From NCBI GenBank assembly GCA_003212795.1, contig QCOV01000002.1:186001-250000 (forward strand): a stretch of 64,000 nt of DNA, read 5' to 3'. A model generated the notes under the pieces. That model was given only the letters and a program-made list of their open reading frames with translations, ran no database searches and was not told the DNA's origin. The DNA is from OCS116 cluster bacterium AG-435-F03. Lineage in GTDB: Bacteria > Pseudomonadota > Alphaproteobacteria > MED-G09. Every line of letters starts with the position of its first letter. Position 1 is the first letter of the stretch. Shown here piece by piece: positions 31,769 to 62,113 of this stretch. Position numbers and translations under genes: made by a program.

Positions 31769-32263
31769 CTAGAGTGCGTCTTCCTGTGTTTCGCCTGTTC
31801 GAATTCTTATTGCTCTATCTACATCAGTAATAAAAATCTTACCATCGCCAACCTTACCTGTCTCAGAAGTTTTTGATATAAGGTCTACTACTTCTTCAAC
31901 TTTTTCTGTAGGAACAACAAGTTCAATTTTTATCTTTGGCACTTCAGTTGTTTTGTATTCTGCTCCTCGATAAATTTCTGTTTGACCTCTTTGACGACCA
32001 AACCCTTTTATTTCCGTTGCAGATAAACCTTCAATTCCAATAGTAATAAGTGAATCTCTTACATCATTATATTTATGCGGCCTTATAATCGCAGTTATCA
32101 TTTTCATGGTTTCCCCCTTCTCTAATCTAAGAGCAATTTTAACTAATCTTCTTATCGACTCGGAATGCGATGGAATATCTGTTTGATTTCTTCTCCACTT
32201 ATCCACCTCTTGTCTAAATTCGGAAGAGGCCACTAACTGTATTCTTTGATCTTGCTTGTTCAT
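31769..32263 (-). CDS. Ribbon-helix-helix domain fused to nitrogen-regulatory PII protein
   Basis: One uninterrupted frame joining two known modules. The first ~50 residues (QRIQLVASSEFRQEVDKW, then SESIRRLVKIALRLEKGET) have the strand plus two helices of MetJ/Arc-type RHH DNA-binding proteins. From residue 53 it is a full 112-residue PII protein: MKMITAIIRPHK start, T-loop GQTEIYRGAEYKTTEVPK with the modifiable Tyr, and GKVGDGKIF. The internal ATG at 32107 is preceded by GGGGGAAACC, a good SD, so free PII could also be made. Start at 32263 chosen over 32278. PII senses ATP/ADP/2-oxoglutarate; no glnA or amtB is adjacent. Confidence 0.85.
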   Translation of the reverse strand: MNKQDQRIQLVASSEFRQEVDKWRRNQTDIPSHSESIRRLVKIALRLEKGETMKMITAIIRPHKYNDVRDSLITIGIEGLSATEIKGFGRQRGQTEIYRGAEYKTTEVPKIKIELVVPTEKVEEVVDLISKTSETGKVGDGKIFITDVDRAIRIRTGETQEDAL

Positions 32264-32346: not shown

Positions 32347-32421
32347 GCGGGTGTAGCTCAGTGGTAGAGCATCACGTTGCCAACGTGAGGGTCGTGAGTT
32401 CGAATCTCATCGCCCGCTCCA
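32347..32421 (+). tRNA. tRNA-Gly (anticodon GCC)
   Basis: Full cloverleaf: acceptor GCGGGTG pairs with CGCCCGC, D arm with GTAGCTCAGTGGTAGAGC, anticodon stem TCACG/CGTGA enclosing loop TTGCCAA (anticodon GCC), T arm with GTTCGAATC. CCA is encoded at 32419-32421. A T-rich run follows (CTTTTTATT) and may end transcription. Confidence 0.97.
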
Positions 32422-32479: not shown

Positions 32480-32644
32480 TTAAGCAACATTATTATATTT
32501 AATGCCTCTATATTTAAGTTCTTTTTGGACAATATTAATTTTTTCAATGTTATTATTATGCTTAATGCCTCTATAAAGACCTTCTTTTAAAGGCATGCAT
32601 GTTTCAACTGCTATATCTCTATTTCCTCTATATATTCTATTCAT
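32480..32644 (-). CDS. YRG-repeat microprotein B (DUF4278-like)
   Basis: 54-residue gene read from the minus strand: starts MNRIYRGN, contains three spaced YRG units (IYRGNRD, LYRGIKHNN, KYRGIKYNN) and ends VA. It begins one base after the stop of its paralogue (TAAGATG), with the SD AGGAG inside the end of that gene, so the two are translationally coupled. The YRG repeat pattern resembles DUF4278, a small family known mainly from cyanobacteria; that match is from memory of the motif. No membrane segment or signal peptide. Function unknown. Confidence 0.7.
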   Translation of the reverse strand: MNRIYRGNRDIAVETCMPLKEGLYRGIKHNNNIEKINIVQKELKYRGIKYNNVA

Positions 32645-32645
32645 C

Positions 32646-32792
32646 TTAAGCTCCTCTATATTTAAGTTCGTCTCTGTTTATTTCATTTTTTTCAACAGTA
32701 TTGTTGTGTTTAACACCTCTATAAGTGCCTTCATTATTGTGATTTCTTTCCTCAACATTAATGTTTGTATTTCCTCTGTAGATCTTTTCCAT
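32646..32792 (-). CDS. YRG-repeat microprotein A (DUF4278-like)
   Basis: 48-residue paralogue of microprotein B: MEKIYRGNTN..., TYRGVKHNN, and a final KYRGA. The start at 32792 is supported by a strong SD (AAAGGAGA) six bases upstream; a longer in-frame start at 32849 has no SD. It ends right after the third YRG where microprotein B continues with IKYNN. At DNA level the two share the segment CCTCTATATTTAAGTTC (32504 and 32654 regions). Asn-, Lys- and Glu-rich. First gene of a two-gene leftward unit divergent from the cobalamin riboswitch. Confidence 0.72.
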   Translation of the reverse strand: MEKIYRGNTNINVEERNHNNEGTYRGVKHNNTVEKNEINRDELKYRGA

Positions 32793-32904
32793 TTTAATCT
32801 CCTTTATATGTATAATGTATAACTTACACATAATATGTATATTACTCACTAAAATGTCAACCCCCTTTAACTTTTTTCTTGTTATTTTTTTAATAACAAA
32901 TAAA

Positions 32905-33058
32905 AGACCAATTGGTGCCGTTTAATATCGGATAATAGGGAAAAAGGTTTAAATCCTCTGCTGTACCCGCAACTGTTATTAAGTGTTTTTACAAATGTGT
33001 CACTGAGAAATTGGGAAGACTGTAAAAACTATACTTATAAGCCAGGAGACCTGCCAAA
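32905..33058 (+). promoter_or_regulatory. Cobalamin (B12) riboswitch aptamer
   Basis: Hallmarks in order: GGTGCCG (32914), AATAGGGAA (32934), AAATCC then the ACCCGCAACTGT core (32966-32976 region), a 9-bp stem GTTTTTACA/TGTAAAAAC (32985-32993 with 33021-33029) enclosing CACTGAGAAATTGGGAAG, and the B12 box GCCAGGAGACCTGCC (33041-33055). Lies upstream of a btuB-like receptor gene, its usual target. High cobalamin should repress. Confidence 0.93.
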
Positions 33059-33101
33059 ATAGTCGTATGTTTTTAGATCGGGGATAATCTAAGAATGCGG
33101 G

Positions 33102-33144: not shown

Positions 33145-34965
33145 ATGTTTGTCATTATTTTTATTTTTCTAATTTTTATTTCACCTTTGAATGCTCAGGA
33201 ATCAAGTAATTTTTCTATTCCAGAAGAAATAATTGTTAAATCAACAAGATCTGAAACTAATATTTATCAATTGGGTGGTTCAGTAGATATTATTACTTCA
33301 GAGCAAATTAAGAAAAGTGGTTTTAATTTTGTAAATGAAGCTCTTCAAACTATTCCAGGTTTGTATATTAGTCAAAATGGTGCTTTAGGCGGAACTGCTA
33401 CAGCTAGGATTAGAGGAGCAGCAAGTGGTCAGACTTTAGTTTTAATTGATGGTGTTTCAGTTTCTGACCCATCAACCCCTGGCGGTGAGTTCGACTTTTC
33501 AAGTTTATTGAGCTCTAATATCGAAAGAATTGAAATTTTAAAAGGTTCTCAATCAACATTATGGGGCAGTGACGCTATTGGAGGTGTTATTAATATAATA
33601 ACAACTAGTGAAGCAATCGGTCCAAGTATTAAATTGAATACAGAAATAGGCTCTTTCAACACACAAAAAATTGGTGCTGATTTGAGATATTCAAATACGG
33701 TTCATAATTTATATCTATCTTATAATCAGTTTAAATCAGATGGTATTTCAAAGGCAGACAAAAGTGACGGCAATTCAGAGAAAGATGGAATAGGCAGTAA
33801 ATCTTACTTAATAAAAACAGATCATAAAATTTCTGGATTTGAAATATCTACTAACCTTAATTACAGAGAATCCGATATTGACTATGATAGTTTTGGATTT
33901 GTAACTGGAGTTACTGATGGTGATGAAAATACAAAGGGCAGACAAATAAACTGGGCCCTAGAAGCAAAAAAATCTTTTTTAGATGATCGTTTAACAAACA
34001 CATTTTCCCTTTCTGAGTCTGAGATTGACAGGAAATATTATACGAATGGAGTAGAAAATTTTTCAGCAAAAGGTAAAAGAAGTTTTGCAAGATATATTAT
34101 TAATTACAATTTTAACGAAAATAATTTCTTTACCTTTGGAGCTGAGGCAGAGGAGTCATCTACATTTGATGATGATTTTGAAACTGAATCATTATTTTTC
34201 CTTTACGAGGTTATACCTCATGAAGATTTAGGCCTCTCTTTTGGTTTAAGAGAAGATAAAAGAGATAATTTACCAAGTGAAGAAACTCCTAAGGTAACAG
34301 CTTATTATAATATTAATAATAATTTACGCCTATCAGCTAATTGGGGCGAGGGGTTTAAATTACCAACAATATTTCAATCTACATTTTTTTGCTGCGGAGC
34401 AGACAAACCAAACAATAATCTGCTTCCAGAAACTAGTGAGGGATATGAGGTTGGCTTAACTTATGAATCAAATGAAAGAGATAATAGTTTCAAGTTTATT
34501 TATTTTGATCAGGAGATTAGTAATATGATAGATTTTTCATTTAGCCTTGGTGCTTATGAAAATTTAAAACTTGTTAACTCCGAAGGTTATGAATTTAATT
34601 TCGTATCTATTATCACTGATAATATACTTTTATCGGGAAGCTACTCCAAAACAGATAGCACAAATGAAGCAGGTATCAGGCTTATTCGATTGCCAGAAGA
34701 AAAAGCAAACTTAAATTTTGATTTATCTTACGGACTTAAAAATAAAATTTTTGTATCATTCTTTTATAATGGTGATGAAACTGACCCAAGAGGAATTGTC
34801 AAAAGCTGGATTAGATCTGATATAAATTTTTCTAGAAAAGTGAATGATAATATTAGAATGTATTTAAAAATCAAAAATATTTTCGATGAAAATTATCAAG
34901 ATATATACGGTTATGGAACCGAAGAAAGATCATTCAATTTAGGTGTATCATTGGATATTAATTAA
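33145..34965 (+). CDS. btuB: TonB-dependent receptor, BtuB-like (vitamin B12 uptake)
   Basis: Outer-membrane gated channel. Signal peptide (about 1-17, ending PLNAQE), TonB-box-like EEIIVKSTR, plug domain with [27 protein letters not shown] and [20 protein letters not shown], then a 22-strand barrel ending in the aromatic/hydrophobic strand [11 protein letters not shown]. 606 residues, close to E. coli BtuB (614). Substrate assignment rests on the cobalamin riboswitch directly upstream. btuF/C/D are not in the window. Converges with purH with a 4-base overlap. Confidence 0.9.
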
Positions 34966-57417: not shown

Positions 57418-59132
57418 TAAATAATGTACATATCAGAGATAACACCAGTTTGTGCGCCTGATGAGTCCAATATATCTGCAACACCAAAAGAACGAGCAAA
57501 TTCGGTATATGTTAAGTCAACTCCAGCTGTTCCATCTGTTACATTTCCACCAACATTGTAAGAGAATTTATCTGCACTATTGATAGTGATTTCGCGCCCA
57601 TCCTCAAGAGTTAGGCGTGCTGCATTTTTGGTAAATAAGGTTTTATCAACATATGTATTATAAGGAATCTGAATAATATTTGTACCTTCAGTATCTGTAA
57701 TAGATACTTTTCCACTTTTTGGAAGAAGTTGTGAAACAAAATAAGTATCATCGCCTTCAAGGCCTCTGTAGTTCTTAGCCTGTCCATCAAGGATAATAAT
57801 ATTTTCACCTGCATTGAAATTAAGTGTTCCAGAAAGAACACTATCACTGTGAGCCTCTAAGGTATTTTTACTTGAATCTGCTGTAAGAGAGAGCTTATAT
57901 TTTGCAGCTTTTTCAATGGTAGGTGAAATTTCGGTAATTTGTAACTCAGGCATATTTTGCGATTGAAAATTCACAAAAACAAGTTCGCCATCTATTTCAA
58001 AAGGCCTTGTATAACTTTGATACCAATATTCACCATCAACAACTATTGGAATGTCATATTTACTGAAGTTACCAGAGTCATTTATATAAATCAGGTTTTG
58101 TAATGTTAGATTCCCATTTGAATTTGTATATTCAGACCCTGTCGTACCACTTAAAATTAAATCCTTATCTCCATCTTTATCTACATCTATAAGTTCATAA
58201 CCACCATGAGAGAGTTTTGCCAAAGGCATATCAATTGTTGTAGTCTTTCTAAAATTATAATCTCCATCATTCATAAAAATTAAAATTTTTCTGTCTGAAC
58301 CCGACTCTGTACTAACAATAATGTCGTTGAAACCATTTGAGTCGAAATCGTCAAATTTAAAGGATTCAACACCCATAGATTGATCCTCCAACAAATATGT
58401 AAATATTGGTGTTAGTTCATTAGCTGTTGTAAGTTCTTCAAGGTTATCAGAGTAGACAGTAAATTCAGCTTTATAACCATAGGCTGCTACATAAGAACCA
58501 AGAATCATCTCAGGTTCACTATCACCGTCAAGATCGGCAATACCTATTGCACTCATTCTTCCCGCATTTATTACATTTGTTTGTTCAAAAACTTTCTCAT
58601 CAGTTTGTTTCCATATAAAAAATTCATCAAATGAAACAGCAAAAATATCATTAAGACCATTATTGTCGATGTCATGTACAGCAATACAATGATAAAAAGT
58701 TTGTTTTTCTGAAACTTGAGTCCAAGTAATATTATTTTCATCATCAATACTGGCAACGCGAATATGATTACCTGCGTAAGGAGCTGTTCCAACTTCTAAA
58801 CCCTGGTCAGGAAAAACTATATCCTTGTTTGAGTTTAAAAATTTTGGACCATTCATATATCCTATTAAAATATCTTCGGTATTATTGAGTTTCCATTTTC
58901 CGTCCTCTTTAATGAGGTGAAGAGGATTAACCTCAGGATCTTCATTAAACCACGATCCAGTCAAAATAATATGTTCAGTTTGGTCTTTTGCAAAATACAT
59001 AGTTCCCTCATTAGAGTTTGCTATGACTTGATTTTTAGTACCAGAATCTGACCATTTATCTGTTCTGTCATCTCGATTTGAAGTGTAAGGAACATCTACA
59101 AAAGATTGTGTTAAAGTGTAATTCTTGGACAT
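57417..59132 (-). CDS. Large FG-GAP/VCBS-repeat secreted-type protein 1
   Basis: 571 residues, no Sec signal peptide. Seen: four or more Asp-rich FG-GAP/VCBS-type calcium motifs (DIDNNGLNDIF near 155, DLDGDSEPEMI near 200, DDFDSNGFNDII near 264, DVDKDGDKDLI near 320), then a C-terminal domain from about 413 shared with the next gene and ending DMYII. The acidic, repeat-rich, signal-less design with a hydrophobic C-terminal tail suggests type I secretion; no HlyB/HlyD/TolC genes are in the window. Probable extracellular or cell-surface beta-propeller. Ligand unknown. Confidence 0.75.
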   Translation of the reverse strand: MSKNYTLTQSFVDVPYTSNRDDRTDKWSDSGTKNQVIANSNEGTMYFAKDQTEHIILTGSWFNEDPEVNPLHLIKEDGKWKLNNTEDILIGYMNGPKFLNSNKDIVFPDQGLEVGTAPYAGNHIRVASIDDENNITWTQVSEKQTFYHCIAVHDIDNNGLNDIFAVSFDEFFIWKQTDEKVFEQTNVINAGRMSAIGIADLDGDSEPEMILGSYVAAYGYKAEFTVYSDNLEELTTANELTPIFTYLLEDQSMGVESFKFDDFDSNGFNDIIVSTESGSDRKILIFMNDGDYNFRKTTTIDMPLAKLSHGGYELIDVDKDGDKDLILSGTTGSEYTNSNGNLTLQNLIYINDSGNFSKYDIPIVVDGEYWYQSYTRPFEIDGELVFVNFQSQNMPELQITEISPTIEKAAKYKLSLTADSSKNTLEAHSDSVLSGTLNFNAGENIIILDGQAKNYRGLEGDDTYFVSQLLPKSGKVSITDTEGTNIIQIPYNTYVDKTLFTKNAARLTLEDGREITINSADKFSYNVGGNVTDGTAGVDLTYTEFARSFGVADILDSSGAQTGVISDMYII

Positions 59133-59170: not shown

Positions 59171-62113
59171 TTATATAACATACATATCAGCAATACTACC
59201 AGTTTGAGCGCCTGAAGAATTGAGAATATCATACACGCCAAAAACTTCTGCAAACTCAGCAAAAGTTAAATCAGTTCCCTTTGTCCCATTAGTGATATTG
59301 CCACCCACATTATAGGAAAACTTATCAGCGCTATTAATGGTAATTTCTCGTCCATCTTCAAGGGTTAAGCGTGCGGCATTTTTGGTGAAGAGCGATTTAT
59401 CAACATATGTATTTGCGGGTACTTGAATAATATTTGTTCCGTCAGTATCGGTTATAGATAATTTTGTGTTTTTTGGAATCAATTGTGAAACAAAGTAAGT
59501 GTCATCTCCACTTAAGCCCCGATAATTTTTCCCCTGTCCATCAAGAATAACGATATTGTCTCCAGCATTAAAATTGAGCGTCCCTGAGATAGCATTTTCG
59601 CTATGAGCAGTAAGTGTATTTTGATTAGTATCAGTGGATTCTGAAAGCTCATATTTTAGTGATGTTTTAGAGAGTGTTTTATCGGAGAATTGTATTTTCT
59701 CAATACTGGTTAAAGTATCCGAACCTTCATCAGTAAAGCCTTCAGATGGTGAGGTATGAACAACACTAACCGTTCCATCATCATTAGCCGTTAAAGTATA
59801 AGCTGAGGATGCATCTTTATAAATGGCTGTATCGACTCCCTTACCACCGTCAATAATATCGTTACCAGCGCCACCTTCAAAAGTATCTTTACCATCAAAA
59901 CCAAAAGCTTTTTCATTTCCTTCTCTCAATTTTAGATCGTTATCCTCCTCATTAAGCCAAACAGTAGTATTTTTTGCAAAGGGATGATAATTTTCATTTA
60001 TTCCAAAATTTTTAAAATGCTCGTAAGCAGTTTCATAATCTCCATTATCTAAGGACTCTTGTACATTAGGATATCTATTAAGGTAAAATTGTTCATCGAA
60101 ACCATTTGAATCTCTTTTTCCTGCACCATAATTTCCTAGATCTAAATTTGTTGTTTCTGGTGATAGGATTTGTGGTCGAATTTTCATACCATCTTGATAA
60201 ATTAAAACACCAATTTGATTATTGCCTAGATCGAGAAAATATTTAAAACCTATATCATTCCAGTCTAAATTAATTTTAAGTTGTTTAAAGTTTCCTAATC
60301 CATCATTTCTTAAAACATAAACATCGTTGACTGTAACTCCGCCAAATCCATAATTATTTCCTGTTGTTATAATGTCCAGATGACCATCAAAATCAATATC
60401 TATAACTTTAGTTTCAATTCCAAAGTTACCCATTTCATATTCTGAAATTTTATTATTCCAATCCTCAAATTTTTCATCGACATAACCGTAATAAGAAAAT
60501 CTTAGTCCTTCCCAGTTACCCACTCCTGTTCTGGCATCTCCGTTAGAAGCACTAATTTTTAATATTTCAGGTATTCCATCATGATTAAAATCTGCTACAA
60601 CTCCTCCATGAAAGCGAACAAAGCCAATCGATTCAAAATCAGTCAAAGGTAGGGTAGTCTTTGAAGAACCAAAATTATCACCTCCCCAAAAAACATATTC
60701 CCCTCCAACAAGATCATCATATCCATCTTGATTAAAATCACCTGCCAACAACCAACTACTTCGACCATCATTAGAATTTTTTTCAATCTCTGGATAATAA
60801 GTAATAGCTCTATCATCATTAGAAAATTCTATTAGGTATCTATTTGGATAATTATCAAAAGCACCAAGATTATTAACTATAATTTGTTTATTGTCTTTAC
60901 TTGTAAAATTACCAACAACACTTCCATGACTAAAATCAACTGTTTCTGGATATGAAAAATTTTCATTCTTGGCCCAACCATCTGATGATCCTATGAATAG
61001 CTGGTTTTGCTCGCCCCAAACAGGATTTATTCTTGGATCCGGAGCATTCTTAAACCCATCCATACCGCCAACCTCTCTACCTTGACTTGAGATAAAAAGA
61101 TCTAAATTTTTGTCATTATTTAAATCCATTACATGAAGGTCACGTGCCCAATAGGTAATTACCTCTTGATCAAAGTATTCAGAAGTAAAATCTTTTACTT
61201 TTCCATTCTCTATGGAATATACGGATATATTTGTTCCGGTGGAGTTAACATATGAGTTTCCCTGAAGTAGAGAATTTAAGTGTGTAAGAACTAAAAAATC
61301 TTTATTACCATCATTGAAAATTGTATGAAACCAGGGTGTTGAAGGTCCACCATTAATTGATCCATTTTCTGAAATAGGATAATTAAGATCATTGTAACTT
61401 ACCGAATTAAAACTTCTGTCAATCTCAATGATTTCTGAGGTTTTAAGATTTTTGACCGATAGATAACCTTTTTCACTTCTTGAGAAAAAATAATCATAGA
61501 AAGTTGTATTACTATCTAATTGAAAAGCTTTAAGATCAGCTGGCCTTTCAATATATTTGTCATCATAAAAAACAAAGTCATACAAAACGCCATCACTATT
61601 TTTTATAACGATATTTTCTATATTTTGGATTTTAGTATTAAGATTATTACCTTGGTTAGTAAATTCTAGTTCCCAGAAATCATCAATTTTAGTAAGGCTA
61701 ATAAAGTTTTCTTTCGTGTCTAACCAATAATTAATTACATCATAACCATTACCACCGTTAACAGTATCATTTCCAAGGTCAATCCAAAATGTCTGGTTTT
61801 TATCGTTACCTATAATGTTGTCATTAAATTTTGAATCCCAAATAGTATCAATATCGAAAACTTTATCCTCAAAACCCCATCCATCTGAAATTATATTATT
61901 TGATAAATTTGCAACTATACCTTCAGGGGAATTTCGATAACTAACTGAAGTAAATCTTGATAGTCCAATTAACTCATCACTTCCAGAATTCCCAATTAAT
62001 CTATGGTTATAGCCATAGATAACTTCATTCTCTTCAGAGCCCTCAATGTCATCCCATTCAGTAATTTCTTTTGCATCTTGTGGAGTATTTTTTAAAATTC
62101 TATTATTTGACAT
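59171..62113 (-). CDS. Large FG-GAP/RTX-type secreted protein 2
   Basis: 980 residues, no Sec signal peptide. Parts: N-terminal RTX-like region (LIGNSGSDELIGL, NDTVNGGNGYDVINYW), a beta-propeller with FG-GAP motifs (DLNNDKNLDLF near 332, DFNQDGYDDLV near 460, DFNHDGIPEIL near 510, DIDFDGHLDII near 573), a FDEQFYLNRYPNV motif near 671 found in many large secreted proteins, one RTX nonapeptide run GGAGNDIIDGGKG near 750, and a C-terminal domain (from about 819) shared with protein 1, ending DMYVI. It is 38 bases upstream of protein 1 and probably cotranscribed. Type I export inferred. Confidence 0.78.
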   Translation of the reverse strand: MSNNRILKNTPQDAKEITEWDDIEGSEENEVIYGYNHRLIGNSGSDELIGLSRFTSVSYRNSPEGIVANLSNNIISDGWGFEDKVFDIDTIWDSKFNDNIIGNDKNQTFWIDLGNDTVNGGNGYDVINYWLDTKENFISLTKIDDFWELEFTNQGNNLNTKIQNIENIVIKNSDGVLYDFVFYDDKYIERPADLKAFQLDSNTTFYDYFFSRSEKGYLSVKNLKTSEIIEIDRSFNSVSYNDLNYPISENGSINGGPSTPWFHTIFNDGNKDFLVLTHLNSLLQGNSYVNSTGTNISVYSIENGKVKDFTSEYFDQEVITYWARDLHVMDLNNDKNLDLFISSQGREVGGMDGFKNAPDPRINPVWGEQNQLFIGSSDGWAKNENFSYPETVDFSHGSVVGNFTSKDNKQIIVNNLGAFDNYPNRYLIEFSNDDRAITYYPEIEKNSNDGRSSWLLAGDFNQDGYDDLVGGEYVFWGGDNFGSSKTTLPLTDFESIGFVRFHGGVVADFNHDGIPEILKISASNGDARTGVGNWEGLRFSYYGYVDEKFEDWNNKISEYEMGNFGIETKVIDIDFDGHLDIITTGNNYGFGGVTVNDVYVLRNDGLGNFKQLKINLDWNDIGFKYFLDLGNNQIGVLIYQDGMKIRPQILSPETTNLDLGNYGAGKRDSNGFDEQFYLNRYPNVQESLDNGDYETAYEHFKNFGINENYHPFAKNTTVWLNEEDNDLKLREGNEKAFGFDGKDTFEGGAGNDIIDGGKGVDTAIYKDASSAYTLTANDDGTVSVVHTSPSEGFTDEGSDTLTSIEKIQFSDKTLSKTSLKYELSESTDTNQNTLTAHSENAISGTLNFNAGDNIVILDGQGKNYRGLSGDDTYFVSQLIPKNTKLSITDTDGTNIIQVPANTYVDKSLFTKNAARLTLEDGREITINSADKFSYNVGGNITNGTKGTDLTFAEFAEVFGVYDILNSSGAQTGSIADMYVI

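Follow-up and report, generated by a model that had tools for sequence, protein, structure and literature searches.

The question this locus raises is why two very small genes of a marine alphaproteobacterium, next to a glycine tRNA gene, resemble in sequence a family of small proteins whose other known members belong to cyanobacteria and cyanobacterial viruses. We analysed them in a window of 64,000 nucleotides from OCS116 cluster bacterium AG-435-F03; "the window" below means this whole stretch. The pair and the junction between its members are as follows.

32646..32792, minus strand: YRG microprotein 1, 48 aa, ATG start, three YRG units; PF14105 score 22.0 bits, below the 25.3 cut-off.
32480..32644, minus strand: YRG microprotein 2, 54 aa, three YRG units; PF14105 score 26.8 bits, above the cut-off.
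32642..32657, minus strand: junction of gene 1 and gene 2, read from the sequence; Shine-Dalgarno (SD) AGAGGAG (32657-32651) in the last YRG codons of gene 1, followed by TAA-G-ATG.

An earlier note had described two tiny paralogous genes of 48 and 54 residues, and the open reading frames (ORFs), lengths and coordinates agree with it. Protein 1 begins MEKIYRGN and ends KYRGA, and protein 2 begins MNRIYRGN and ends KYNNVA. The start of gene 1 is the ATG at 32792, because it has a good SD (AAGGAG, 32804-32799) and is matched in relatives, although a longer 67-aa version of the frame with a GTG start is also listed among the ORFs. Direct reading of the junction, TATAGAGGAGCTTAAGATG, bears out the description of the second SD as lying inside the end of the first gene: it is built from the final Arg-Gly-Ala codons of gene 1, and the ATG of gene 2 starts one base past the gene 1 stop (TAAGATG). 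In both proteins the YRG units begin at Y5, Y24 and Y45. The note had the three units right, but it placed (V/I)KHNN between all of them, and it occurs only after the second unit; the third unit of protein 2 is followed by IKYNN.

On the sequence evidence, both genes are real and coding. The pair holds six YRG triplets in 102 residues, while the 52 window ORFs of at least 150 aa (18,264 aa) hold four, against 1.3 expected. Since there are also orthologues in nine other genomes and dN/dS is low, the YRG pattern is more than chance. We searched with protein 1 in a family set of 18 genomes (G000-G017), the relatives being titled PS1 clade, OCS116 cluster or Rhodobiaceae, and found a three-YRG ORF of 48-54 aa beside the same tRNA-Gly in 10 of the 18. 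The earlier note had proposed a search for the same pair beside tRNA-Gly in relatives and had allowed for there being no homologues anywhere. The gene is indeed there, but as a pair in only two of the ten (G000, and G001, where the contig stops within gene 1); eight have a single copy (G005, G010-G013, G015-G017). The single copy of G005 is most like the microprotein 2 form, and the ORF of G013 holds one unknown residue. With G013 excluded and paralogue pairs included, dN/dS was 0.02-0.57 over 21 pairs and below 0.4 in 19 of them, which is purifying selection. Eleven aligned rows share M1, Y5-R-G, I11, E14, G22, Y24-R-G, H29, K44 and Y45-R-G without exception.

Before counting, we removed matches in long frames (262-264 aa and 688-695 aa) as unrelated, having read the 262-aa one. 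The A1 profile matched in 3 of 385 genomes of the class at E up to 0.05, the third being a weak match in a long frame (G274, 223 aa, E 0.0175) that was removed without reading. The same profile had no match among solved structures. A tblastn search found no phage or plasmid relatives, to which low-complexity masking may contribute, as a Pfam scan found DUF4278 in 6/6 cyanophage records. Scans of viral contigs gave no confirmed relative. The AlphaFold2 model of the microprotein was poor (mean pLDDT 48.6, pTM 0.19). As a separate observation, two neighbouring large ORFs of the window, at 57420-59132 and 59174-62113 on the minus strand, have a KNYRGL-GDDT string in common.

The earlier note had the pair adjoining tRNA-Gly and divergent from a B12 riboswitch, and we found both elements in place. 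The features around the pair, including those just upstream of it, are listed below.

32347..32421, plus strand: tRNA-Gly(GCC), convergent with the pair; the same neighbour in 14/14 family loci read.
32815..32831, minus strand: operator-like near-palindrome ATGTGTAAGTTATACAT, conserved, upstream of the pair.
32832..32860, minus strand: promoter-like TTGACA-N17-CATATT upstream of gene 1; weak alone, with 6 such sites against 5.0 expected in shuffles.
32897..33072, plus strand: cobalamin riboswitch, divergent from the pair; 95.3 bits.
33145..34965, plus strand: TonB-dependent receptor, encoded after the riboswitch; BtuB-like from its position.

Judged by eye, a TTGACA-like box lies upstream of the microprotein gene in most relatives. 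The palindrome core, GTGTAA(C/G)T, is in 9/9 upstream regions read and is kept in G007, which has no microprotein gene. Elsewhere in the genome the palindrome has a single near match, at G000:C1:16022, flanked by a TonB receptor and a PhnD-like gene, both named by reading; a control pattern also gave one match per strand, and we claim no regulon.

For 14 of the 18 family genomes we read the surrounding locus. This count leaves out G014 and also G002, G004 and G006, where the search turned up just a second P-II (55-56% identity) and the locus seems not to be assembled. The microprotein is present in ten of the 14 loci, is reduced in G003 to a tail, ELKYRGTKYNDVA-stop, where the pair would be, and is absent in G007, G008 and G009; it is dispensable. 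Riboswitch-like conserved strings, again judged by eye, come next in 13 of the 14 loci, and the contig of G001 ends before them. The order P-II, tRNA-Gly, B12 riboswitch is also found in G007, G008 and G009. The microprotein gene probably predates the split of two genera and was probably duplicated in one sublineage and lost repeatedly; the common ancestor of two or more genera in this marine family would then have had a DUF4278-type microprotein, inherited vertically since. A 67-aa ORF, probably helical, directly follows the microprotein in the sister genus (L022, L023, L025, L026). It is intact in G010, G011, G012 and G015 and broken in G016 and G017, and it has no family match over cut-off.

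The likeness to DUF4278 that the earlier note had seen in the pattern is borne out by the PF14105 profile for protein 2 (E 6.7e-6) and falls short of the cut-off for protein 1 (E 2.2e-4). Cyanomyophage records scanned whole had a DUF4278 ORF in all six cases at E up to 1, three of them over the cut-off, and the six proteins scored 21.0-29.2 bits, a range into which both proteins of the window fall. Searched at the DNA level, PF14105 had no match across 398 Pseudomonadota genomes except in the window's own, and matched in 3 of 96 relatives (G000, G001, G005). We are confident, though short of certain, that the genes encode DUF4278-type (YRG-repeat) microproteins. None of the other sampled Pseudomonadota has DUF4278, which makes it plausible that the genes came long ago from cyanobacteria or their phages, and this is probably their origin; the earlier idea of a transfer from marine picocyanobacteria is plausible in this older form, with the donor a matter of conjecture, and is not supported as a recent insertion. 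In cyanophage P-SSM2 a type 1 glutamine riboswitch (L066:1245-1296) lies just upstream of the DUF4278 ORF. Neither glutamine riboswitch model (RF01739, RF01704) matched upstream of the window pair at E up to 5, and none matched over cut-off in 19 genomes.

The note had also held that no neighbour explains the pair. This was incomplete, because it overlooked a P-II gene just beyond the tRNA, two genes from the pair and there in 14/14 loci.

31772..32263, minus strand: P-II protein with an N-terminal extension of about 50 aa, ribbon-helix-helix-like; coordinates from the second Met and without the stop codon (31769-31771); PF00543 E 1.5e-27.

The extension is in frame in all 14 family loci and is absent from the P-II of G018. 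In it AlphaFold2 predicts two helices (14-26 and 33-47), with a confidence that is moderate to low. It had no match in Pfam or NCBIfam, and only two in PDB sequences, both with E above 1; the ribbon-helix-helix label is our assumption from the order strand-helix-helix and a motif. Fold comparison of the P-II model gave matches that cover the P-II part only, which leaves the predicted helices and the sequence likeness to stand-alone proteins as the basis for the N-terminal fold. The extension was matched in 9 of 289 class genomes, four of the nine being family members; four non-family matches were read and have no P-II after the extension, a fifth (G113) being outside this count. The extended protein is a possible DNA-binding P-II, and plain P-II could also be made from an internal start, as an SD-like run of G precedes the P-II Met. 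The open-licence literature searched contained no paper joining ribbon-helix-helix with a PII/GlnB fusion.

What is published on the family points to nitrogen. Passages of PMC6316151 describe DUF4278 as the N-terminal part of IF17, a glutamine synthetase (GS) inactivating factor that is stabilised by its N-terminus, which also seems to make the inactivation of GS more effective; they also describe glutamine aptamers in cyanobacterial genomes as mainly associated with DUF4278 genes. Homologues of gifB are identified by DUF4278 in a passage of PMC11288750, and part of PMC9964418 reports glnA-type RNA in cyanophages. The small cyanobacterial protein PirA binds P-II, and ADP and the T-loop are needed, according to part of PMC8092223. 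Within the open-licence literature searched, DUF4278 is seldom named and PF14105 nowhere, and the YRG motif together with cyanobacteria came up only in unrelated plant work.

The genome has GlnD (PF08335 with HD and ACT). In the 12 family genomes searched with PF08335 (G000-G011), nine have one protein each, the one that was read being GlnD, and none of the 12 shows a second, GlnE-like protein. GS adenylylation therefore seems to be missing, and another control of GS would be useful, although the absence of GlnE also fits general genome streamlining, G022 and G023 having no PF08335 match at all. Extra PF08335 matches, which we take to be GlnE, were seen in G018, G020, G021 and G024.

Our preferred explanation, which we hold tentatively and at rather less than even confidence, is that the microproteins act as small protein regulators of nitrogen assimilation. 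They would be largely extended, like the cyanobacterial DUF4278 proteins, IF17 and PirA. Their three YRG units would allow multivalent weak binding to an oligomeric partner, which may be P-II (a trimer) or glutamine synthetase (a dodecamer), and the N-terminally extended P-II two genes away would be the prime candidate for a partner or regulator. The TAAGATG coupling would keep the two paralogues at near equal amounts. The links that fit this mechanism are circumstantial: the associations of the family, the P-II neighbour and the apparently missing GlnE. The adjacency to P-II may be accidental, because the order of P-II, tRNA and riboswitch exists without the microprotein.

Two other accounts of the origin have to be weighed against membership of DUF4278 and an old transfer. 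The YRG likeness could be convergent, in a family-specific peptide of unrelated origin. Only one of five family members tested passes the Pfam cut-off (three relatives scored 15.1, 21.3 and 14.3 bits, two of these within the range of shuffles that keep YRG), and a profile-profile comparison (hhalign) of the PS1 and phage sets was a weak match, aligning 9 columns at 45% probability. Composition-matched shuffles of protein 2 that keep YRG matched DUF4278 in 4 of 10 cases and reached 16.8 bits. However, since they go no higher than this, the score does not come from the YRG triplets alone: protein 2 is 10 bits above the best of the 10 shuffles and over a curated cut-off, and the alignment of protein 1 spans nearly the full profile (4-55 of 57). 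We consider convergence unlikely. The pair could instead be recent phage- or island-borne cargo at tRNA-Gly, close to the earlier note's remark that a position next to a tRNA gene fits an insertion point; tRNA genes are common integration sites, and cyanophages carry DUF4278 ORFs. We rejected a recent island, and this account is largely refuted and extremely improbable. The place is conserved in two genera under purifying selection, gene order is kept around the losses in relatives, the tRNA 3' end matches in the window only at the tRNA itself, which leaves no duplicate or attachment repeat to mark an island boundary, no integrase is among the immediate neighbours, and the viral-contig scans gave no relative.

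The remaining alternatives concern function. The YRG units might be decoys that copy the apex of the P-II T-loop (TEIYRGAEYKT, containing YRGAEY) and bind the partners of P-II, or undergo modification of the YRG tyrosine by GlnD. This T-loop is the only YRGxx[YH] among the 52 window ORFs of at least 150 aa, GlnD is present, three units match the three loops of a P-II trimer, and a Y is at the matching position in 11 of 23 readable units (four PS1-type and six phage proteins). Against this, the flanks of the window proteins beyond YRG and Y/H are no more T-loop-like than shuffled ones (P 0.084 and 0.35), and for the phage proteins P ran from 0.006 to 0.39 before any correction for the ten tests; we think decoys quite unlikely. 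A role for the pair in taking up B12, or one tied to the divergent TonB receptor through a common control region, is very unlikely. The gene is divergent beside the cobalamin riboswitch in gene-bearing loci whose contig reaches there, but loci without the microprotein (G007, G008, G009) or with it deleted (G003) retain both riboswitch and receptor, and control of the pair in cis is impossible for a riboswitch that lies on the opposite strand. A long shot is the bolder reading in which a cyanobacterial-type microprotein was built into an alphaproteobacterial circuit with a clade-specific ribbon-helix-helix P-II, a DNA-binding nitrogen sensor, the YRG units being multivalent T-loop mimics that titrate partners.

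DUF4278 has almost no biochemistry. Here a three-unit form is kept by selection in a streamlined heterotroph apparently without GlnE, beside an unusual P-II, which gives a second, independent setting for asking what the YRG unit binds. If the microproteins are small-protein nitrogen regulators, a style of control thought typical of cyanobacteria would have crossed into ocean heterotrophs.

Among known systems, the DUF4278 microproteins of picocyanobacteria and cyanophages have the size, YRG units and Pfam score range of the window pair in common. The window proteins differ in having three YRG units where the phage proteins have two, in their alphaproteobacterial host, in having no glutamine riboswitch and, in one sublineage, in forming a tandem coupled pair. 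IF17 (GifB) has DUF4278 as its N-terminal part (PMC6316151, in part), the part that the window proteins resemble, but these have no further domain: the ORFs end after the YRG region, with only DUF4278 and a sub-threshold match of 13.0 bits, and no GS-inhibiting C-terminal part of the IF7 type as in IF17. PirA (Ssr0692), as partly described in PMC8092223, is a small cyanobacterial regulator that binds the P-II T-loop, and we use it as a model for a microprotein encoded near P-II, claiming no membership of its family.
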